A stretch of 64,000 nt of DNA, from positions 30,548 through 94,547 of the forward strand of contig MELC01000058.1 in NCBI GenBank assembly GCA_001767455.1, read 5' to 3'. Position numbers and translations under genes: made by a program. The DNA is from Acidobacteria bacterium RIFCSPLOWO2_12_FULL_66_21 (lineage in GTDB: Bacteria > Acidobacteriota > Vicinamibacteria > Vicinamibacterales > 2-12-FULL-66-21). Within the stretch, counting starts at the first letter, position 1. Every line of letters begins with the position of its first letter. Under the pieces are notes generated by a model, which was given only the letters and a program-made list of their open reading frames with translations, did no database searches and had not been told where the DNA came from. Below are positions 52,214 through 60,815 of this stretch, piece after piece.

Positions 52214-53304
52214 GGGTCGCCCGTGTGCAGGCGTGGCTCGGCGAGCGCGTCCCGATCGCTCCGTTGATCGAAGCGCTGAGACACAAACGCGTCCCGCAGC
52301 ATCGGTACTCGGTCTGGTACTACTTCGGCGGAATCACGCTCTTCCTGTTCGTCGTCCAGGTGGTGACCGGCGGGCTGCTGCTTCTGTATTACCGCCCCAG
52401 CGCCGGCGAAGCGTACGAGAGCGTTCAGTTCCTCATGACGAGGGTCCAGTTCGGATGGCTCGTCCGATCGATCCACGCCTGGTCGGCGAACCTGATGGTC
52501 GCCTCGGCCTTCGGGCATCTGTTCAGCGTCCTGTTCCTCCATGGCTACCGCAGGCCCCGGGAGGTGACATGGGTCAGCGGCGCCTTCCTGTTGTTCCTGG
52601 TTCTGGCGTTCGGATTCACGGGCTACCTGCTCCCGTGGAATCAGTTGTCGTTCTTCGCCACGAGCGTCGGCACCGATATGGCCGGCACCATTCCATGGAT
52701 CGGACACTTCATCGTCCGTTTCCTGCGCGGCGGCGATACCGTCACGGGCGCGACATTGACGCGACTGTTCGGCGTTCATGTGGCGATCCTCCCGGCGATC
52801 GCCACGGCGCTCGTCTGCCTTCACCTGTTTCTCGTTCAGCAGCACGGTATGAGCGTGCCGCCATCCATTGAAGAGGAGAGTCGCCGGTCGGAGCGTCCGG
52901 TTGCGACGGTACCGTTCTTTCCCGATTTCGCGCTGCGCGATCTGTTCGCCTGGACGGTGGCGCTGGCCGTGCTGGCGGCTCTGGCCGCTTTCTATCCGTG
53001 GGAGCTCGGGCTGAAGGCAGATCCATTTGCGGCAGCCCCAGCCGGGATCCGTCCCGAATGGTATTTTCTCTGGGAGTTCCAGACGCTGAAGTACGTGCCC
53101 GCATCGGCGTTTGGCATCAACGGCGAGCTGCTCGTCGTCGGCGCGCTGGGGATCGGCGCTGCGTTGCTTTTGGCCCTTCCGTTCCTCGTTCCCGATCGTC
53201 CGTCCACCCGCCGCGCACTCGCCTGGATCGCGGCGGCGGCCCTTGCGTACATGATTCTCCTGACGGCTCTCGCGCTGCGCGGTTCGGGAGGACCGATCCC
53301 ATGA
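52210..53304 (+). CDS. Cytochrome b (fused b6/IV type)
   Basis: This 364-residue protein carries both parts of cytochrome b: the haem-binding four-helix core ([17 protein letters not shown] and [21 protein letters not shown]) and the C-terminal part with the Qo-site PEWY in [12 protein letters not shown]. It has about eight membrane helices. The gene overlaps Rieske and octaheme genes by 4 nt each, so the three are one complex. Confidence 0.92.
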
Positions 53305-54473
53305 TGGCGCTGCGGGCGGTGCACGCGGCGGCGGTCCTGGCGATCGCGGCGTCCTGGGCGTCGGCACAAACGACGGAAGAGGCGGCGTCGCGGGCGTATC
53401 GCGACGACGTGCACGCGGCGGCCGGGCTCAGATGCGCCGCCTGCCATCAGGAGAGCAGGTCAACGTACGCGATCGCGCGAACAGCGGTTGCGCCTCTCTG
53501 CGCGAAGTGCCACAGCGACGCCGCGTACATGAAGGCGTTCGATCCGCAGGTGCGGGTCGACCCATACGCGCAGTACCTGACGAGCACGCACGGCAGGCAG
53601 ATGGCCAAGGGGGAGACGCGCGTCGCGACGTGCAGCGACTGTCACGGCGCGCACGGCGTACGGAAAGTGGCCGACAGTCGATCGCCCGTCGCGCCCGTCA
53701 GCGTCGCTCTCACCTGCGAAAGGTGCCACGCGGATCCCGCCCGCATGGGCGCGTTCGGCAAGGAGGCGACGCCGTTCAAGGACTGGTCCGAGAGCGTCCA
53801 TGCCGCGGCGCTCCTCGAGCGCGGCGACCTGTCGGCGCCAACCTGCAGCACGTGCCACGGCAGCCATGGCGCCGCGCCCCCGGGCGTGACCGAGGTGGCC
53901 AACGTCTGTGCGCACTGTCACGTGCGCGAGGCCGAGCTGTTTCGCGCCAGTCCGAAGAAAGCGATATTCGAGCAGATCGGTCAGGCCGAATGCCTCGCCT
54001 GTCACGGCAGCCATCGGATCGAGCAACCGGCCGACGCGTGGGCCGGCTTGACGGAGCCTGCGGTGTGTGCGGCGTGTCACGACAGCACGACCAGGGGTGC
54101 GGATACGATTGTGAGGATCCGAAACGGATTGGACCGGTTGGCCGCGGCGATTGCAGGTGGGGAGGCCGTTCTCGCGCGTGCGGAGCGGGCCGGAATGCTC
54201 GTCGATGATGGACGCGCGGCATCGCGCGAAGCCCGGGAACATCAGATTCACGCGCGCGTCCTCGTGCACGCCTTCGCCCTCCAGCCGTTTCAGGACATGA
54301 CCGATCAAGGCATGCGGGCCGCGAGGCAGTCCCAAGCCGCGGGCGAGCGCGCGCTGCACGACTTGCAGGTCCGGCGTCGCGGACTGCTCGCGGCGACGAT
54401 CCTCATCGTCGGGTTCCTTGTGACGCTGTGGTTCAAGATTCGACGGCTTGGTCCTCGCGGCGATCAGCTGTGA
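53301..54473 (+). CDS. Octaheme cytochrome c with C-terminal membrane anchor
   Basis: This 390-residue protein has a signal peptide ([20 protein letters not shown]) and eight CxxCH motifs: CAACH, CAKCH, CSDCH, CERCH, CSTCH, CAHCH, CLACH and CAACH, several followed by GxH as in multihaem nitrite/tetrathionate-type folds. Then comes a long helical region and a C-terminal helix ([17 protein letters not shown]). It replaces cytochrome c1 as electron exit of the Rieske/cytochrome b complex. Multihaem bc complexes of this kind occur in acidobacteria and anammox bacteria. Confidence 0.9.
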
Positions 54474-54745
54474 AGACGACCGGAAGGATCTCAGGCCGGG
54501 GCGCAGTTCCGAGGCCAAACCCGTCCGCACTGGGCCCGCGCGTTCCCGGTCGCTCCGTGCTACGGTAACGGCCTTCGGTTTGATCGAGAACAGGCAGCGG
54601 CGGTCGCGGACTGTCGGATTTCAAGCACTGACGCACCGACAGAGTTACGGATCTGCGCCCTCGAGTTTGGACGAGGCCATTTTCATTCAATCACTTGCGA
54701 GTTCGTCGCCAGGCATGGCACATCTCGTGCTTCCGTGCCACCCGA

Positions 54746-55114
54746 ATGTCATCACTGTTGACACTCCGGCGCTTGGTCAGCCTGGCCACGGTCATGGCCA
54801 TCGTGATCGCCGGCCTCCCCGCGCTCGCCGCAACGCGCGCCGCATCGCCTCGGTGCAGGGCGATGGCACAAATGGGTCACGAGTGTCACCGGCCAAGCGC
54901 CTCGCTCACCTGCTGCTGCTCTGACGACGAAGACTCGCAGAGCTCGGGCGTCCCAGCGGAACGCAACGGATCGATGGCCCCAACGGCTTCTTCAGCCGGT
55001 GCGGGCGTGGCCGTGACGGTTCCAGCATTCCGGATGGATCGCCTCGCGCCTTCACCAACGCAGGGCTATCGAAACAGAGACTTACCTACCCTCTTCGCGA
55101 CCTTCCTGCTCTAA
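54746..55114 (+). CDS. Small secreted Cys/His protein
   Basis: This 122-residue protein has a signal peptide (LVSLATVMAIVIAGLPALAA) followed by CRAMAQMGHECH and TCCCSDDEDSQ, and ends in DLPTLFATFLL. The Cys/Met/His pattern suggests a metal-binding periplasmic peptide. It is placed like the His-rich protein ahead of a TolC-like gene. No known family. The start at 54746 is chosen for the signal peptide; an upstream ATG at 54695 is possible. Confidence 0.5.
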   Translation: MSSLLTLRRLVSLATVMAIVIAGLPALAATRAASPRCRAMAQMGHECHRPSASLTCCCSDDEDSQSSGVPAERNGSMAPTASSAGAGVAVTVPAFRMDRLAPSPTQGYRNRDLPTLFATFLL

Positions 55115-55130
55115 GTGTGTCTCCGGGTTT

Positions 55131-55226
55131 CGCCGAAGCGCATCGCGCGAAGGCGGACCTGTCCCGCCGAAGCGCATCGCGCGAAGGCGGACCTGTCCCG
55201 CCGAAGCGCATCGCGCGAAGGCGGAC
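55131..55226. repeat. 34-bp tandem repeat, three copies
   Basis: The unit CGCCGAAGCGCATCGCGCGA plus AGGCGGACCTGTCC is repeated with a 34-bp period at 55131, 55165 and 55199 (the last partial). It contains a hairpin (CGCC/GGCG and GCGC/GCGC). Related GCGAAGGCGGAC fragments recur near 57670. Confidence 0.85.
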
Positions 55227-55328
55227 CGCATCCCTCAAAACTGTTCCCGTTGATTGACGCGCGTCGTGTTTCGTCACGACACGCGGGGCGACGCTCGCAG
55301 GCGTGAGCCGCCCGAGAGGTGCACTGTG

Positions 55329-56378
55329 ATGAGATCGGTCGGGATTCTGTTCGTCCTGTTTTCTGTGTCAGCGGGACCGGCGTTCGCCCAGCAAGCTGCT
55401 CAGCCTGTCCCGGTTTCCCCGGCGAGCCTTTCGTCGCTCGTATCGGAGCTGGAGGCCAGAAACCCGGAGCTGGCCGCCACCCGTCGCGAGCTCGACATGC
55501 GGGTCGCCCGTATTTCGCCGGCCGGCGCCCCGCCCGACCCAACGGTATCGGTCGGGTATATGAGCGGCTTCCTGCGCCCGCCCTTCTTTCCGTCCACGGC
55601 CACGCCAAACGCCTTTCGGCAGATCGGGGTGTCGCAGGAGATTCCGTATCCAGGCAAGCTGGCGCTCCGGTCGCGCATTGCCTCGACCGAGGCGGACGCG
55701 GCGCGCTGGGAGGTGGAGACCAGGCGCTGGCGGCTCATCTCCGAGCTGAAGACGATGTATTTCGAGTATCAGCTTGCGGCGCGCAACCTCGAGATCGTGC
55801 GCCGGAACCAGACGCTACTGGATCAGTACCGGCAGATCGCGGAGGCGCGCTTCAGCACCGGCCGGGCCATTCAGCAGGATGTGCTGAAAGCACAACTGGA
55901 AATCTCCGGGCTGATCGAGCGCACCGTCGTGCTCGAGCGGCAGCGTGACGCGTTGCGCGCCCGGATCAACGCGCTCCTGTATCGGGCGGCCGACACGCCC
56001 CTCGACGCGGATCTGGCCTACACCGAACCCCCGCTGCCGGCCAGCGCTGAAGGCCTTCGGGCCGACGCGCTGTCACGGTACCCCGCGATTCGCCGGAGCG
56101 AGCAGGAGATCGTCCGCGGGCAGCAATCGCTCGCGCTTGCGCGGCGCGAACTGCGACCGGACTTCGGGATCAATGTGACGACGCAGCGGGGGATCGCCGG
56201 GATGCCGTGGATGTACGGCGTGGACTTCATGGTGAAGGTCCCGATCTTCTGGCAGCGGAAGCAGCGGCCGATGATCGCCGAAGCGGCGGCGGCGCTCGAA
56301 GCCGGGCGCAGGATGCGTGATGCCACCGTCGCCGACGACGGGACGGCGCCACGTGGACACACGCGGCCACTGCCGTGA
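55329..56378 (+). CDS. TolC-family outer-membrane protein, C-terminally truncated
   Basis: The ATG at 55329 gives 349 residues with a signal peptide (SVGILFVLFSVSAGPAFA). The first OEP repeat is whole and the second begins (IRRSEQEIVRGQQSLALA), but the sequence breaks off after RRMRDATV into VADDGTAPRGHTRPLP. Family members run about 430-480 residues with another 100-residue helical hairpin; that part is missing. No cusB or cusA follows. Likely a decaying channel gene. Confidence 0.75.
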   Translation: MRSVGILFVLFSVSAGPAFAQQAAQPVPVSPASLSSLVSELEARNPELAATRRELDMRVARISPAGAPPDPTVSVGYMSGFLRPPFFPSTATPNAFRQIGVSQEIPYPGKLALRSRIASTEADAARWEVETRRWRLISELKTMYFEYQLAARNLEIVRRNQTLLDQYRQIAEARFSTGRAIQQDVLKAQLEISGLIERTVVLERQRDALRARINALLYRAADTPLDADLAYTEPPLPASAEGLRADALSRYPAIRRSEQEIVRGQQSLALARRELRPDFGINVTTQRGIAGMPWMYGVDFMVKVPIFWQRKQRPMIAEAAAALEAGRRMRDATVADDGTAPRGHTRPLP

Positions 56379-56428
56379 GGCACACGAACGTTGCCGCGCG
56401 ACGGAACGGGCGGCTCATCGGCGTTCGC

Positions 56429-56749
56429 TCACTTCTTGGGCTTCACGGATGCTGCGCCAAGCCGAACTTCTTTCGCTATGAGCGGACCCTTGCCCTCGGC
56501 GGACGCGGTCACCACCACGCGATCGCCGACCTTGACGTCGCCGATCTTCATGGCCATGGTGCCGTGGATGACCTTCGTCTTGCTGGTCAGCGTGATCGAT
56601 GCCATCTTCCCGGCAGTCGTCTTCACGTCGAGACGCGTGTCGGTGATCGCCGACACCGTTCCCATGATCTTCTGATCGTGTCCCTCGTGTGCCGACGCCA
56701 GCGGCGCCAGCGTAAGCGCAATGATCGACGCGAGCATTAGACTTCTCAT
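56429..56749 (-). CDS. DUF5666 secreted protein
   Basis: The ATG at 56749 (AAGGGG about 8 nt upstream) gives 106 residues: a signal peptide to ASA, then HEGHDQKIMGTVSAITDTRL and a small beta-barrel ending VTASAEGKGPLIAKEVRLG, typical of DUF5666. Such proteins sit with metal-efflux genes (CusF-like position). The two His near the N-terminus could bind metal. It is transcribed towards the truncated TolC gene. Confidence 0.75.
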   Translation of the reverse strand: MRSLMLASIIALTLAPLASAHEGHDQKIMGTVSAITDTRLDVKTTAGKMASITLTSKTKVIHGTMAMKIGDVKVGDRVVVTASAEGKGPLIAKEVRLGAASVKPKK

Positions 56750-56778
56750 TCTGTGATCCCCTTTTTGCGACTCTTCGA

Positions 56779-57411
56779 CTACCTTCCATGCACATGTTTC
56801 GGAGCGGAGGGCTTCGGTGGAGCTGCGTCCCCTCCCTCGAGAAACCTCTGCTCCTCGAGCTCCTGTCGTACCTCGTCTGGACTTCTCGGGTTCATCCCCT
56901 GCATCTGCTGCAGCTCCTCGGGCGTCAGCGTTGGCAGCTTCCGAATGAAGTGGACGAGATGCCACGACGCTTCGGCGCTTTCCTTGGTGCCGTCGCCCCA
57001 AGCCGGCATGCCCGTCAGCCGGACGCCGTTCTCGATGATGTAGAACAGCTCCCCGTCGGTCAGCGACTGCGTGGCCGGCAGACGCATGTCAGGCGGTTTG
57101 GGATAGAGCCCGAGTCCGATCGCCGTCTCTCCGCTGCCGTCGTTGGCGTGACACGCCGCGCAATGGTCCGCGAAGTGCGCCATCCCTGCCGCGAGGACCT
57201 CCGGCGTGACGGCGATAGGGTTCTTTCGTGTGCGATCGCGGCGTGGTACGGCCAGCCCGCGCATCGTCCGCGCCACGGCCGTCTCGATCCGTCCGGGCTC
57301 GGCGCGCGCGCTGATGCCGCGCGAGCTGATCCAGAGGAACGCCGCCGCAGCGACCAGCGTCAGCAGGGCCACCCCCGAAAGGAGCAGTTTCAACAGGGTC
57401 TTCGGTTTCAC
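56779..57411 (-). CDS. Membrane-anchored cytochrome c
   Basis: The GTG at 57411 (GGAG about 8 nt upstream) gives 210 residues; an N-terminal helix (LLKLLLSGVALLTLVAAAAFL) anchors a monohaem cytochrome with CAACH and the axial Met region ENGVRLTGMPAWGDG. The C-terminus is Glu/Pro-rich and ends KHVHGR. It may deliver electrons to a terminal oxidase. It is followed by the DUF5666 gene 29 bp on, same strand. Confidence 0.82.
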   Translation of the reverse strand: MKPKTLLKLLLSGVALLTLVAAAAFLWISSRGISARAEPGRIETAVARTMRGLAVPRRDRTRKNPIAVTPEVLAAGMAHFADHCAACHANDGSGETAIGLGLYPKPPDMRLPATQSLTDGELFYIIENGVRLTGMPAWGDGTKESAEASWHLVHFIRKLPTLTPEELQQMQGMNPRSPDEVRQELEEQRFLEGGDAAPPKPSAPKHVHGR

Positions 57412-57453
57412 ATGCAGATCTCCAGAACTCTGCGCGTCCGCGCAGAGAGACAC

Positions 57454-58283: not shown

Positions 58284-58679
58284 TCACGATAGCCGAACCA
58301 AGCCAGGGACGAGGTCATACCCCCCGTCGAAACTCATGATGCGAGTGACACCATGCTGCTGCATGATCGCCACGTGGATGGCGTCTCGGGCTGACAGCGA
58401 TGGGTATCCCAGCACGAGCGACTTCGCACGCTCGGCGCCAGCGCGGTCGACTACAAAGACCTCATCGACGACGGCGAGCAGCGCGTCGAACGCATCCTGG
58501 ATTGCCCCGCGACGGTTGATCGCGACATAGCGGTGCACGATCTCCTGCAGCACCTCGGCGTCGGTCACCAGACGCTCGCGGGCTCTTGCCGCCCGTTCGA
58601 GCAGCGAGACGGAGGCCAGCTTGTGGGGGTGCGGTGCGCCGACCAGGTACATCGGCAGGTTGGCATCGATGAAGATCAC
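58284..58679 (-). CDS. PIN-domain toxin (VapC-like)
   Basis: This 131-residue PIN protein has acidic residues at [34 protein letters not shown] and IMSFDGGYD. It is coupled to the antitoxin by a 4-nt ATGA overlap. Expected role: an RNase toxin. All four acidic positions are present, so it looks functional. Confidence 0.85.
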
Positions 58680-58936
58680 GACCGCGAATCGCCAAGATAG
58701 CCGCGCTCGATCTCGGCGTTCATCTGGTCGATGTCCCCCGCCGGATGTTCGTGGCGCGCGGCGGCTCGAATGGCCGCGAGCTTCTGGTCGACGTCAGCGG
58801 ACGACTCGTGGCGTCTTGCGGCGCGGAGCGCCTGTCTGACCCACTCCGCCACCGTGATGCGCTGGCTGCGAGCCGCGCGTCGGATCTCGCGCAGCTCGGG
58901 CTCATCCAGCAGGACCTGCAGCCTCTTACTCATCAT
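58676..58936 (-). CDS. Ribbon-helix-helix antitoxin
   Basis: This 86-residue protein starts [20 protein letters not shown], an RHH/CopG-type fold with a strand and two helices ([17 protein letters not shown]), and has a charged C-terminal tail likely to bind the toxin. An ATG at 58936 or 58933 is possible. Upstream the sequence is rich in ATGATG/CATCAT repeats (58931-58962), a plausible operator, with a weak -10 TACACT. Confidence 0.82.
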
Positions 58937-59016
58937 GATGAGTGTATCATGAGTCATGATGTGAGTCGTACGGACCGCTCGAGCATTCCCTCCCCTCTCG
59001 CCGATCGCCGCAGGGC

Positions 59017-59163: not shown

Positions 59164-59299
59164 GCTCCCGACTCGATCCTGTGCAGCGAACGTCCGCCAA
59201 GATCATCTATGTGACGTGCGGGTAGTTAGGACCCATCGAAAAATCTCGCCGGAGATCGCCAGCTCAACTATGCTAGGGCGACACTCAGGAGGATTTCCG

Positions 59300-59560
59300 A
59301 TGCGCACACCGAAGAGCGTCACCGACGTGATGGAACGGCTGGCCACGGATGCCACATTCGAGTCCCGGCTGAGAAGCGACCCGGCGGGCGTCTTGCGGGA
59401 GATGGGCTGGGAGGCGCAGGACGTCGTCTCCTTCGCCGTCCCGGACAAAGGTGGCTGCGGGACCGCGTGCGGCTGCACGGCCGACATGGGACAGGGCTGC
59501 GGCGAAAAGCGCGGCAACATCGTGCAGTGTCCGAGCGGCAAGCCCGGTCAGGTGTACTGA
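59300..59560 (+). CDS. Nif11-leader RiPP precursor with Cys-rich core
   Basis: The ATG at 59300 has a strong AGGAGG 7 nt upstream and gives 86 residues. Residues 5-47 look like a Nif11-type leader (SVTDVMERLATDATFESRLR, DPAGVLREMGW). A Gly-Gly at 51-52, a possible cleavage site, is followed by a Cys-rich tail: Cys at 53, 57, 59, 67 and 77 within CGTACGC and MGQGCGEKRG. The radical SAM gene begins 13 bp downstream. The peptide is probably modified at Cys (thioether, as in sactipeptides or ranthipeptides) or at Asp/Gln neighbours, then cleaved. The product is unknown. Confidence 0.75.
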   Translation: MRTPKSVTDVMERLATDATFESRLRSDPAGVLREMGWEAQDVVSFAVPDKGGCGTACGCTADMGQGCGEKRGNIVQCPSGKPGQVY

Positions 59561-59573
59561 CCGCGCACGGCTG

Positions 59574-60815
59574 ATGGCGGTCGATGTGCCGCGGTCTTTA
59601 TTCGTATCGCAGAAGGGCGACCGCGTGCTCGCGTTCTCCCAGGACACGGGCATGTGCGTCGTCGTCAACGCGGCGGGACGTGACGTGCTCGACCTGCTGG
59701 TGAGCAAAGGGCTGCTGGGCGAATCGGCAGCAACGCCGAACGCACAGGAGACATCCTCCTCATCGGTCGACGGGCTGTCGGCCGTCTACCTGCACCTGAC
59801 GAACCGATGCAACCTGTCGTGCGCGTACTGTTACAACGCCGGGTATCGCCGCGACCGCGACGCCCGCGACGAGCTGACCGCCCGCGAGATTCGTGACTGC
59901 CTGGACGCGGTTTCCGCGGCCGGAGCGACGCAGGTCGTTTTCACGGGCGGCGAGCCGTTGCTGCGGCCGGATTGCCTCGATCTCGCTCAATATGCCCGCG
60001 GTCTCGGCCTCGAGACGAGCCTCCTGACCAATGGCACCCGCGTGCGCGGGCGCGCGGCACGGATCGCGAGTGTCTTCAGCCCGGTGATCGTCAGCCTCGA
60101 CAGCTGGCGCCCCGAGGAACACGAGCGGCTCCGCGGAAAGGGATCTTTCGCCGTCATCGTCGACGGCATCAGGGAATTGGCCGACGCCGGAGCGGCTCTT
60201 TATCTGCGCGCGGTCGTCACGTGTGAGAACGTTCGAAGCCTCCCGGAATTCCCGTGCTACGCGGCGTCGCACCTGGGATGCACCAACTTCATGCTCGCGC
60301 CCTGCATTCCGACGAGCCTGGAACATGCCGCGGGCCTGACTCTCACTCCAGCCCCGAACGAATACCTCAGCGCCCTCGACGCGTTTCATCGCGTGCTCGA
60401 AGAGGTAGGCGGCACCTCGAACTATGACACGGAGGCATTTCGATCGGACGGGAACTGCGGCGCGGGCTGCAACATCCTCAGCATCTCAGCGGACGGTGAC
60501 GTATTCCCCTGTCAATGCCTGCATCGCGCCGAGCTGTGCGCAGGGAACGTCAGGAAGATGCCGTTGGACCGGATCCTCCAACGGGCCGCCACGGCGCCCG
60601 ACGTGTGCCGGCGCTCGGCAGCGGAGTTCCGCGCCTGCGCGGAGTGCCCCGTGTCCCGGCTGTGCGGGTTGAAATGCTGGGCGCTGCTAGCGGGATTTCG
60701 CGGCGACGAGGAAGCATTCATTGAGCGGCTGTGTCCGATGGCGCATGCGGAGATCGAGCACAGACTCTGGAAGCAGGCCGGACGGATTCTCAGCGAGCAG
60801 CCCGCAGGGTCATAG
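59574..60815 (+). CDS. RiPP-maturing radical SAM/SPASM enzyme with PqqD-like RRE
   Basis: This 413-residue enzyme begins with a PqqD-like RRE (about 5-48; SLFVSQKGDRVLAFSQDTGM), which would bind the leader peptide. The radical SAM motif CNLSCAYC places Cys79, Cys83 and Cys86, followed by FTGGEPLL. The SPASM domain has CGAGCNILSISADGDVFPCQ and the tail CAECPVSRLCGLKC for auxiliary Fe-S clusters. Such enzymes make C-S, C-C or epimerised residues on peptides. Thirteen bases after the Nif11-type precursor, it is almost certainly its modifying enzyme. No transporter or peptidase gene is seen nearby. Confidence 0.88.
   Translation: MAVDVPRSLFVSQKGDRVLAFSQDTGMCVVVNAAGRDVLDLLVSKGLLGESAATPNAQETSSSSVDGLSAVYLHLTNRCNLSCAYCYNAGYRRDRDARDELTAREIRDCLDAVSAAGATQVVFTGGEPLLRPDCLDLAQYARGLGLETSLLTNGTRVRGRAARIASVFSPVIVSLDSWRPEEHERLRGKGSFAVIVDGIRELADAGAALYLRAVVTCENVRSLPEFPCYAASHLGCTNFMLAPCIPTSLEHAAGLTLTPAPNEYLSALDAFHRVLEEVGGTSNYDTEAFRSDGNCGAGCNILSISADGDVFPCQCLHRAELCAGNVRKMPLDRILQRAATAPDVCRRSAAEFRACAECPVSRLCGLKCWALLAGFRGDEEAFIERLCPMAHAEIEHRLWKQAGRILSEQPAGS

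Follow-up and report, generated by a model that had tools for sequence, protein, structure and literature searches.

The gene pair

The window considered here is a stretch of 64,000 nucleotides from the acidobacterial assembly named above. It holds two adjacent genes: one for a small Cys-rich peptide, the precursor, and one for a radical SAM (rSAM)/SPASM enzyme, its presumed maturase (Table 1). The layout described in an earlier note on this DNA can all be read in the sequence: a strong ribosome-binding site, an 86-residue peptide with Gly-Gly at residues 51-52 and five Cys (53, 57, 59, 67 and 77), all within the last 34 residues, and 13 nt between the precursor stop and the ATG of the enzyme gene. 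The precursor is not a chance open reading frame, because it has relatives at 70% and 69% identity and its family numbers 14 members in all. For the enzyme, the start at 59574 is better than an internal GTG at 59625, at which the 396-aa protein record of the same enzyme (P0003) begins, because relatives align from the upstream ATG. The pair is a real two-gene rSAM/SPASM RiPP cassette, as had been proposed, and, within the searches made, an undescribed one.

Table 1. Features of the gene pair (positions in the window)
Feature	Position	Strand	Basis or remark
Ribosome-binding site AGGAGG	59287..59292	+	before precursor gene; read in sequence
Precursor gene, 86 aa + stop	59300..59560	+	ATG 59300; stop 59558-59560
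Leader, residues 1-52, probable NHLP/Os1348-clan helical bundle	59300..59455	+	NCBIfam below cut-off; model
Core (tail), residues 53-86, CGTACGCTADMGQGCGEKRGNIVQCPSGKPGQVY, predicted modification site	59456..59557	+	conserved in relatives
rSAM/SPASM peptide maturase gene, 413 aa + stop	59574..60815	+	ATG 59574
PqqD-like RRE remnant, enzyme residues 9-44	59598..59705	+	three strands + first helix only
Radical SAM core, enzyme residues 75-208	59796..60197	+	Pfam PF04055
CxxxCxxC, enzyme residues 79-86 (Cys 79, 83, 86)	59808-59831	+	sequence
SPASM region, enzyme residues 295-387	60456..60734	+	PF13186 at 295-359

The leader of the precursor

A single-sequence search with the precursor returned two relatives besides the query; a five-sequence profile returned 13 proteins including the query. 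These 13, with the peptide of locus L010, make up the 14-row precursor alignment, in which P0125 and P0131 are near-identical. All Pfam and NCBIfam matches of the family that make sense fall on the leader.

That leader had been called Nif11-like; models of the NHLP/Os1348 clan fit it better, all of them below their cut-offs. Residues 6-38 of the window precursor match NF038399 (Os1348 family NHLP clan) with E 2.7e-6 and 27.3 bits against a cut-off of 40, and TIGR04509 with 1.1e-4; TIGR03793, the model of NHLP precursors, gives 12.0 bits against 50.9, and the peptide (P0001) lies under every curated NCBIfam cut-off. Across the family, NF038399 and TIGR04509 each match 10 of the 14 precursors (E up to 10; best 4.1e-8 and 2.1e-7, respectively). 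The Nif11 models TIGR03798 and PF07862 match nothing in the window precursor up to E 10 and match four of the 14 family precursors each, with best E values of 0.0067 and 0.023. To judge from these sequence models, the leader is likely kin to the NHLP/Os1348 clan rather than to Nif11, a kinship short of formal membership.

The predicted structure of the precursor has helices at residues 4-16, 18-26, 28-34 and 39-45 and a disordered tail (mean pLDDT 61; 72-89 in blocks of the first 40 residues). A fold search with this model gave weak matches, the best at E 1.1: 13 of the 17 listed are SonM/SonA borosin complexes, with SonA as the matched chain deduced from chain length, and the others are Os1348 (6lk7), dbOphMA and two unrelated structures. 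When the precursor-family profile was compared with the PDB, nitrile hydratase came first, at E 0.15.

A conserved core

The tail is what this family keeps. The pattern CGxxCGCxAxMGQGCxxKxG(N/H) fits 10 of the 14 precursors; CGC is present in all 14 and the first core Cys in 13. Behind the shared motif, six precursors continue with NI(V/A)xCPxG(K/R)PG and six with GHAC, P0136 and P0137 being divergent. Pfam and NCBIfam scans of the 14 precursors yielded no sensible model for the tail, four sequence words taken from it had no match in a literature text search, and a search of titles and abstract openings found no published description of the precursor; within that compass, the claim that the tail lies outside the known RiPP classes has held up.

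Precursor and enzyme occur together elsewhere. Small Cys-containing open reading frames were sought at 22, then 18, of 79 enzyme loci; at L010 and L013, both in Omnitrophota MAGs, a family precursor immediately precedes an enzyme that belongs to the clade of the window enzyme. Three further precursors share a source with an enzyme and lie on contigs of equal size (P0124/P0004, 2821; P0130/P0005, 8448; P0137/P0019, 2149), which suggests that each of these pairs sits on one contig. Six pairs were accordingly available for comparison, three paired by adjacency and three by equal contig size. In 15 of the 15 comparisons among them, which share members and hence are not independent, identity of the core (short, Gly/Cys-rich, cut at its own motif before the count, gaps left out) exceeded identity of the leader and of the enzyme. 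Between the window and P0124/P0004, leader, core and enzyme are 56, 88 and 55% identical; between the window and L013 the figures are 37, 56 and 39%; the tightest margin is that between L010 and L013, with a leader at 80% and a core at 84%.

In the part of PMC2887384 that deals with NHLP precursors, conservation stops at GG and a hypervariable core follows. NHLP precursors thus keep the leader and vary the core, and the window's family does the opposite: in contrast to Os1348/NHLP-clan and Nif11 leaders, the core is here the most conserved part, and GG, which immediately precedes the core in 3 of the 14 precursors, is no family motif. A leader that varies more than its core, the reverse of the NHLP arrangement, suggests that the product has one settled function, as is the case for PQQ and mycofactocin, and is not an arms-race weapon.

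The enzymes of these pairs are not a group of their own. A midpoint-rooted tree was made from 46 enzymes, 20 from the 79 loci and 26 from protein records; it left out the short P0009, P0011 and P0018, the full-length P0022, P0003 (the window enzyme itself) and the proteins below P0030, except P0138 and P0139, which were kept. The window enzyme falls in an 18-row clade (support 99/96) with two halves, and known family precursors occur in both: with the window, P0004 and P0005 (99/96) in one, and with L010, L013 and P0019 in the other. On their own, the six precursor-paired enzymes are not a clade (three label changes). Because the other 12 of the 18 enzymes, known from protein only, have no known precursor of this kind, and because the six are not one clade, the substrate range may be wider than this peptide family.

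The maturase

Pfam recognizes both Radical_SAM (PF04055; 3.8e-23, 82.9 bits against a cut-off of 29.5) and SPASM (PF13186; 1.1e-7, 32.5 bits against 21.5), in agreement with the earlier reading of CxxxCxxC and SPASM Cys. In a 27-row alignment the catalytic Cys of CxxxCxxC are all kept in the window enzyme and the SPASM Cys 295, 313, 355, 358, 364, 368 and 387 are invariant; these seven are predicted to hold auxiliary Fe-S clusters. The window enzyme has both marks of an rSAM/SPASM maturase, the CxxxCxxC core and the seven-Cys SPASM region.

Clustering of the enzyme with a well-characterized rSAM group had been named as evidence that would tell against a new product; no NCBIfam cut-off is reached by the window enzyme among the best 25 of 111 models. 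The top model is the sactipeptide maturase StsB (NF045574), which we take to be GggB, with 167.2 bits against a cut-off of 625 (27%), and the next are AhbD and NirJ with about 104-105 bits. StsB is also the top NCBIfam model for the clade mates P0004 and P0005.

The AlphaFold model of the enzyme (from 50 rows; mean pLDDT 88, pTM 0.88) has 5why, presumably CteB, a SCIFF-type maturase, as its nearest solved fold (E 5.7e-17), followed by SkfB (6efn) and SuiB. By sequence only, three PDB chains come out best, a cytosylglucuronate decarboxylase, 5wgg and SkfB, with E values between 1.5e-11 and 1.9e-11. CteB (5wgg/5why) and SkfB (6efn), with which the window enzyme shares its overall fold, are thioether-forming SPASM enzymes that act on Cys-containing peptides; they are 18% identical to the window enzyme, which, unlike them, is without RRE helices 2-3. 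No SCIFF precursor model appears among the NCBIfam matches of the 14 precursors.

The fused PqqD-like domain that the earlier note described is a remnant. Pfam PqqD has no match in the window enzyme; in the enzyme model, three strands and a single helix span residues 9-44, a linker follows, and helices 2-3 are absent. The RRE is about 36 residues shorter than in P0004, P0005, P0014 and P0019: between positions 36 and 76, where the window enzyme has 40 residues, P0004, P0014 and P0019 have 77 and P0005 has 76, and the same interval measures 79 in P0006, 75 in P0010, 67 in P0013 and 66 in P0016. The PqqD model PF05402 gives P0005 38.5 against a cut-off of 23.4 and P0004 20.9, just under it, matches P0139 very weakly (E 0.052) and does not match P0138. 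Scores and lengths indicate that the RRE is generally divergent across the clade, with some rows carrying a shorter version and the window enzyme the shortest; the L013 enzyme has an N-terminal region of full length. The apparent loss of about 36 residues relative to relatives, which may be a true deletion or an artefact of assembly, is placed at window 59690-59720.

The absence of helices 2-3 may mean that the leader is bound weakly, or that the gene is decaying. If the window enzyme, with half of its recognition domain lost, is still active, it would reveal the minimum of leader binding with which maturases of this type can work.

Distribution

The cassette is rare. Among 396 genomes sampled from its phylum, the precursor was found in its own genome alone; among 384 sampled from the phylum to which G060 (the L013 genome) belongs, it was found in two. 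Each sample covers part of a larger group. Absence of precursor conservation in related genomes had been put forward as evidence against the proposal, and the outcome is divided: among the sampled genomes of the phylum the precursor stands alone, and its conservation is strong in distant and metagenomic relatives.

Matches to the rSAM enzyme at E 1e-10 or better occur in 49 of 60 genomes, the window's own included; no close relative was found in the 59 related genomes (11 of the same family), the best match scoring 95 bits against 933 for the enzyme itself. The window's own genome contains five weaker rSAM matches, 28-38% identical over part of the enzyme, and no second family precursor: a search for one gave two matches at chance level, and TIGR04509 finds the window peptide only, below cut-off. 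The viral contigs searched gave no match. Plasmid records matching the enzyme number 473, none of them at least 60% identical and the ten matches listed between 25 and 34%. In GC and GC3 the pair does not stand out from its surroundings, so that any transfer would have been ancient or from a donor with a comparable base composition.

One way to understand a solitary copy with a shortened RRE is decay: the deletion would have broken leader binding, and the window pair would be on its way to being lost. The roughly 36 missing RRE residues fit this, as does the lack of a relative in the other 395 sampled genomes of the phylum. Both frames are open, however, the catalytic and SPASM Cys are all kept, GC and GC3 look normal, and identity to the nearest paired relative is 88% in the core against 55% in the enzyme. 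Decay is rather improbable.

Ring pattern and candidate chemistry

The spacing of residues behind the core Cys bears on what the enzyme may do. If a terminal Cys of P0135, with no residue after it, is set aside, xxG stands behind the last core Cys in 14 of 14 precursors, and this Gly at +3 is the sole constant offset among +1 to +6; the core position of that Cys varies (25, 23, 22 or 20). The fourth core Cys is followed by xxK in 13 of the 13 precursors that have it, P0136 being without; offsets besides +3 are also near constant there, because much of the core is conserved. Cys57 has one of T, N, D and S at +3 in 13 of 14 precursors, and Cys59 has one of D, N, S and G there, again in 13 of 14; behind Cys53 the +3 residue varies (A, Q, T, V, E).

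In sactipeptides, the sulphur of Cys is bound to an alpha carbon. The closest parallel to the pattern seen here is streptosactin (GggA/GggB), likewise the product of an rSAM/SPASM maturase and a Cys-containing precursor, whose rings, in the passages of PMC8172795 that describe them, join Cys25 to Ser28 and Cys31 to Gly34, unnested (one passage prints Cys15 for Cys25). These are rings from Cys(i) to i+3, one of them on C-x-x-G, and C-x-x-G is constant in the window's family too. The window precursor differs in its five Cys, their spacing, its NHLP-clan leader and a core common to distant genomes; moreover, the streptosactin cluster as described there has a protease gene (PMC8172795), and none was seen beside the window pair. 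The likeness is one of pattern and not proof of the chemistry.

The enzyme likely binds the precursor and is predicted to link tail Cys to nearby backbone carbons through thioether bonds. A 5'-deoxyadenosyl radical formed at the CxxxCxxC cluster would abstract hydrogen from an acceptor three residues after a Cys; the Cys sulphur would then close the ring with assistance from the SPASM clusters, as is known for sactisynthases, and 2 Da would be lost per ring. The best-placed candidate rings are those from Cys77 to Gly80 and from Cys67 to Lys70; the first three Cys (CGxxCGC), none of which has an invariant residue at +3, may form further rings, with Thr, Asn, Ser or Asp as acceptors, or serve as free ligands. 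Thioether formation is the most likely chemistry, with acceptors that we infer from sequence. As there are only two genes, the cassette can be tested by co-expression alone.

An alternative is ranthipeptide-type chemistry, in which Cys would be joined to beta or gamma carbons, as PapB does, and not to the alpha carbon. The PapB model scores 91 bits over enzyme residues 68-370, the best solved fold, 5why, is that of the SCIFF-type maturase CteB, and Asp, Asn or Ser stands at +3 of Cys59 in 12 of 14 precursors. Yet StsB outscores PapB by 76 bits, and the Asp concerned in the window, Asp62, is replaced by Ser or Asn in most relatives. Furthermore, the recognition motif of PapB, in the passage of PMC8172795 that gives it, is Cys-x3-Asp, with Glu accepted, and none of the 14 cores places Asp or Glu four residues after a Cys, which speaks against a ranthipeptide of the PapA type. 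Such chemistry is unlikely at this locus.

Membership in the triceptide/cyclophane RiPPs was considered and set aside. An aromatic residue is the ring anchor of these peptides; the sole aromatic residue of the window core is the terminal Tyr86, no Trp, Tyr or Phe position is common to all 14 cores, and six rows carry His at the same place.

Surroundings and probable function of the product

Ten flanking proteins of the window were scanned with Pfam. They comprise an outer membrane efflux protein, a DUF5666 protein (below cut-off), a cytochrome c, a PIN-domain protein, a MacB/FtsX permease, a multihaem cytochrome c and four proteins without a match. The earlier note had seen no exporter or protease nearby: no protease or C39-type exporter is among the ten, and this part of the claim stands, but a MacB/FtsX-type permease begins 0.94 kb downstream of the enzyme gene, and on the upstream side the outer membrane efflux protein is about 3 kb away. 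The sole C39-peptidase match of the genome is on another contig, C91. Five scanned neighbours of L010 are two TPR proteins, a PagL-like outer membrane protein, a short-chain dehydrogenase and an FAD oxidoreductase; of three at L013, one is cellulase-like and two are without a Pfam match. At two sister-family loci described below, one neighbour each was chosen for scanning: at L012 a DUF420 protein, and at L011 an ABC ATPase, which is separated from the downstream gene pair by about 1.8 kb. The remaining neighbours at L010, L011, L012 and L013 were assessed by eye. The window, L010 and L013 have no neighbour in common and no protease or C39-type exporter, as judged from the ten and eight scanned proteins and the rest by eye. 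The permease of the window and the ABC ATPase of L011 leave room for export.

Two other stretches upstream of the pair may be recorded. At 53298-57450 the multihaem cytochrome c, the efflux protein, the DUF5666-like protein and the cytochrome c are clustered in a redox- or metal-related stretch, which is not seen at L010 or L013. At 58284-58957, on the minus strand, the PIN-domain protein and a small upstream partner without a Pfam match are likely a toxin-antitoxin pair.

One perspective would make the product an ordinary bacteriocin-type RiPP, with export and cleavage genes elsewhere in the genome or with the nearby permease and efflux protein in that role. The part of PMC2887384 concerned links NHLP precursors to an ABC transport system; the C39-peptidase match on the other contig, the positions of the permease and the efflux protein, the ABC ATPase near the L011 pair and the Gly-Gly at 51-52 of the window precursor all agree with it. 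Against it, GG directly precedes the core in so few relatives, the core is conserved and not hypervariable, and no transporter is among the eight scanned neighbours of L010 and L013. A bacteriocin is distinctly unlikely on this balance.

The explanation preferred here is a two-gene cassette in which a peptide, likely with an NHLP-clan leader, receives thioether rings on its five-Cys tail and then serves a fixed role inside the cell; as a whole we consider it reasonably probable. The product would act in redox, metal or signal functions, possibly with the leader still on. The reasons for an intracellular, fixed role are that the core barely varies among close relatives and that no protease or C39-type exporter was seen next to the pair at any of the three loci (window, L010 and L013); such a role, which we infer, is the most likely use of the product.

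A more specific alternative holds that the product is a metal- or cluster-binding mini-protein: one or two rings would fold the tail, Cys53, Cys57 and Cys59 would bind the metal, and the peptide would be a carrier or buffer and no weapon. The constancy of CGC and of the first Cys (14 and 13 of 14) suits such a site, as do a core that stays fixed while enzyme and leader drift and the same want of a protease or C39-type exporter at the three loci, where some neighbours were judged by eye. No constant metal gene lies beside the pair, however, the scanned neighbours of the window, L010 and L013 being different, and the likeness to the nitrile hydratase motif CxxCSC is without score support, as set out below. 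The mini-protein is a possible but doubtful reading.

That likeness concerns the alpha subunit of nitrile hydratase. The leader aligns to the segment that precedes the metal site in three nitrile hydratases from order-level relatives, and a profile alignment puts CGTACGC of the precursor on CTLCSC of nitrile hydratase, so that the Cys triads coincide. The alignment scores 35.2 as a whole, 32.5 with the leader alone and 9.9 with the core alone; 69 of 150 cores with permuted columns also reached 35.2, so that the core adds nothing, and homology of the core to the metal site was rejected. The two also differ in size, 207 aa for nitrile hydratase alpha (7qom) against 86 aa for the precursor, and in motif, C-x2-C-S-C against C-x3-C-G-C. 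A bolder proposal can be framed around the alignment: a free-standing metallopeptide whose leader is kin to nitrile hydratase and whose CGxxCGC claw, at the site of the parent's CxxCSC, would be preorganized by two thioether rings from i to i+3. This is very unlikely indeed; if true, the pair would be a sporadically spread two-gene cassette that produces a new cofactor peptide of metal or redox type.

Related peptide loci

Other Cys-rich peptides were met beside related enzymes. In a sister family, represented by L011:5650-5892 (Rhodobacter MAG) and L012:5486-5752 (Epsilonproteobacteria MAG), precursors lie directly upstream of related rSAM enzymes and have unlike leaders and a near-identical tail, SCSGCGCxCFSxxGAGHGCGxHAGHWA. 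Short peptides just downstream of the enzymes of another clade (100/100) were seen at L015:7466-7600, L017:1612-2057, L019:7482-7619 and L023:7408-7614; these begin with MF-P, have CGCGC- or CSCGC-type motifs and Gly-rich tails, and come from Acidobacteriota and one Stenotrophomonas. In an Aminicenantes MAG (L022:5018-5896), five tandem open reading frames for small Cys/Gly-rich peptides precede an rSAM enzyme. Lastly, the nitrile hydratase alpha model brought up NHLP-like peptides ending in AISAGLCCCW at L114, L115 and L117, in the order relatives G058 and G031.
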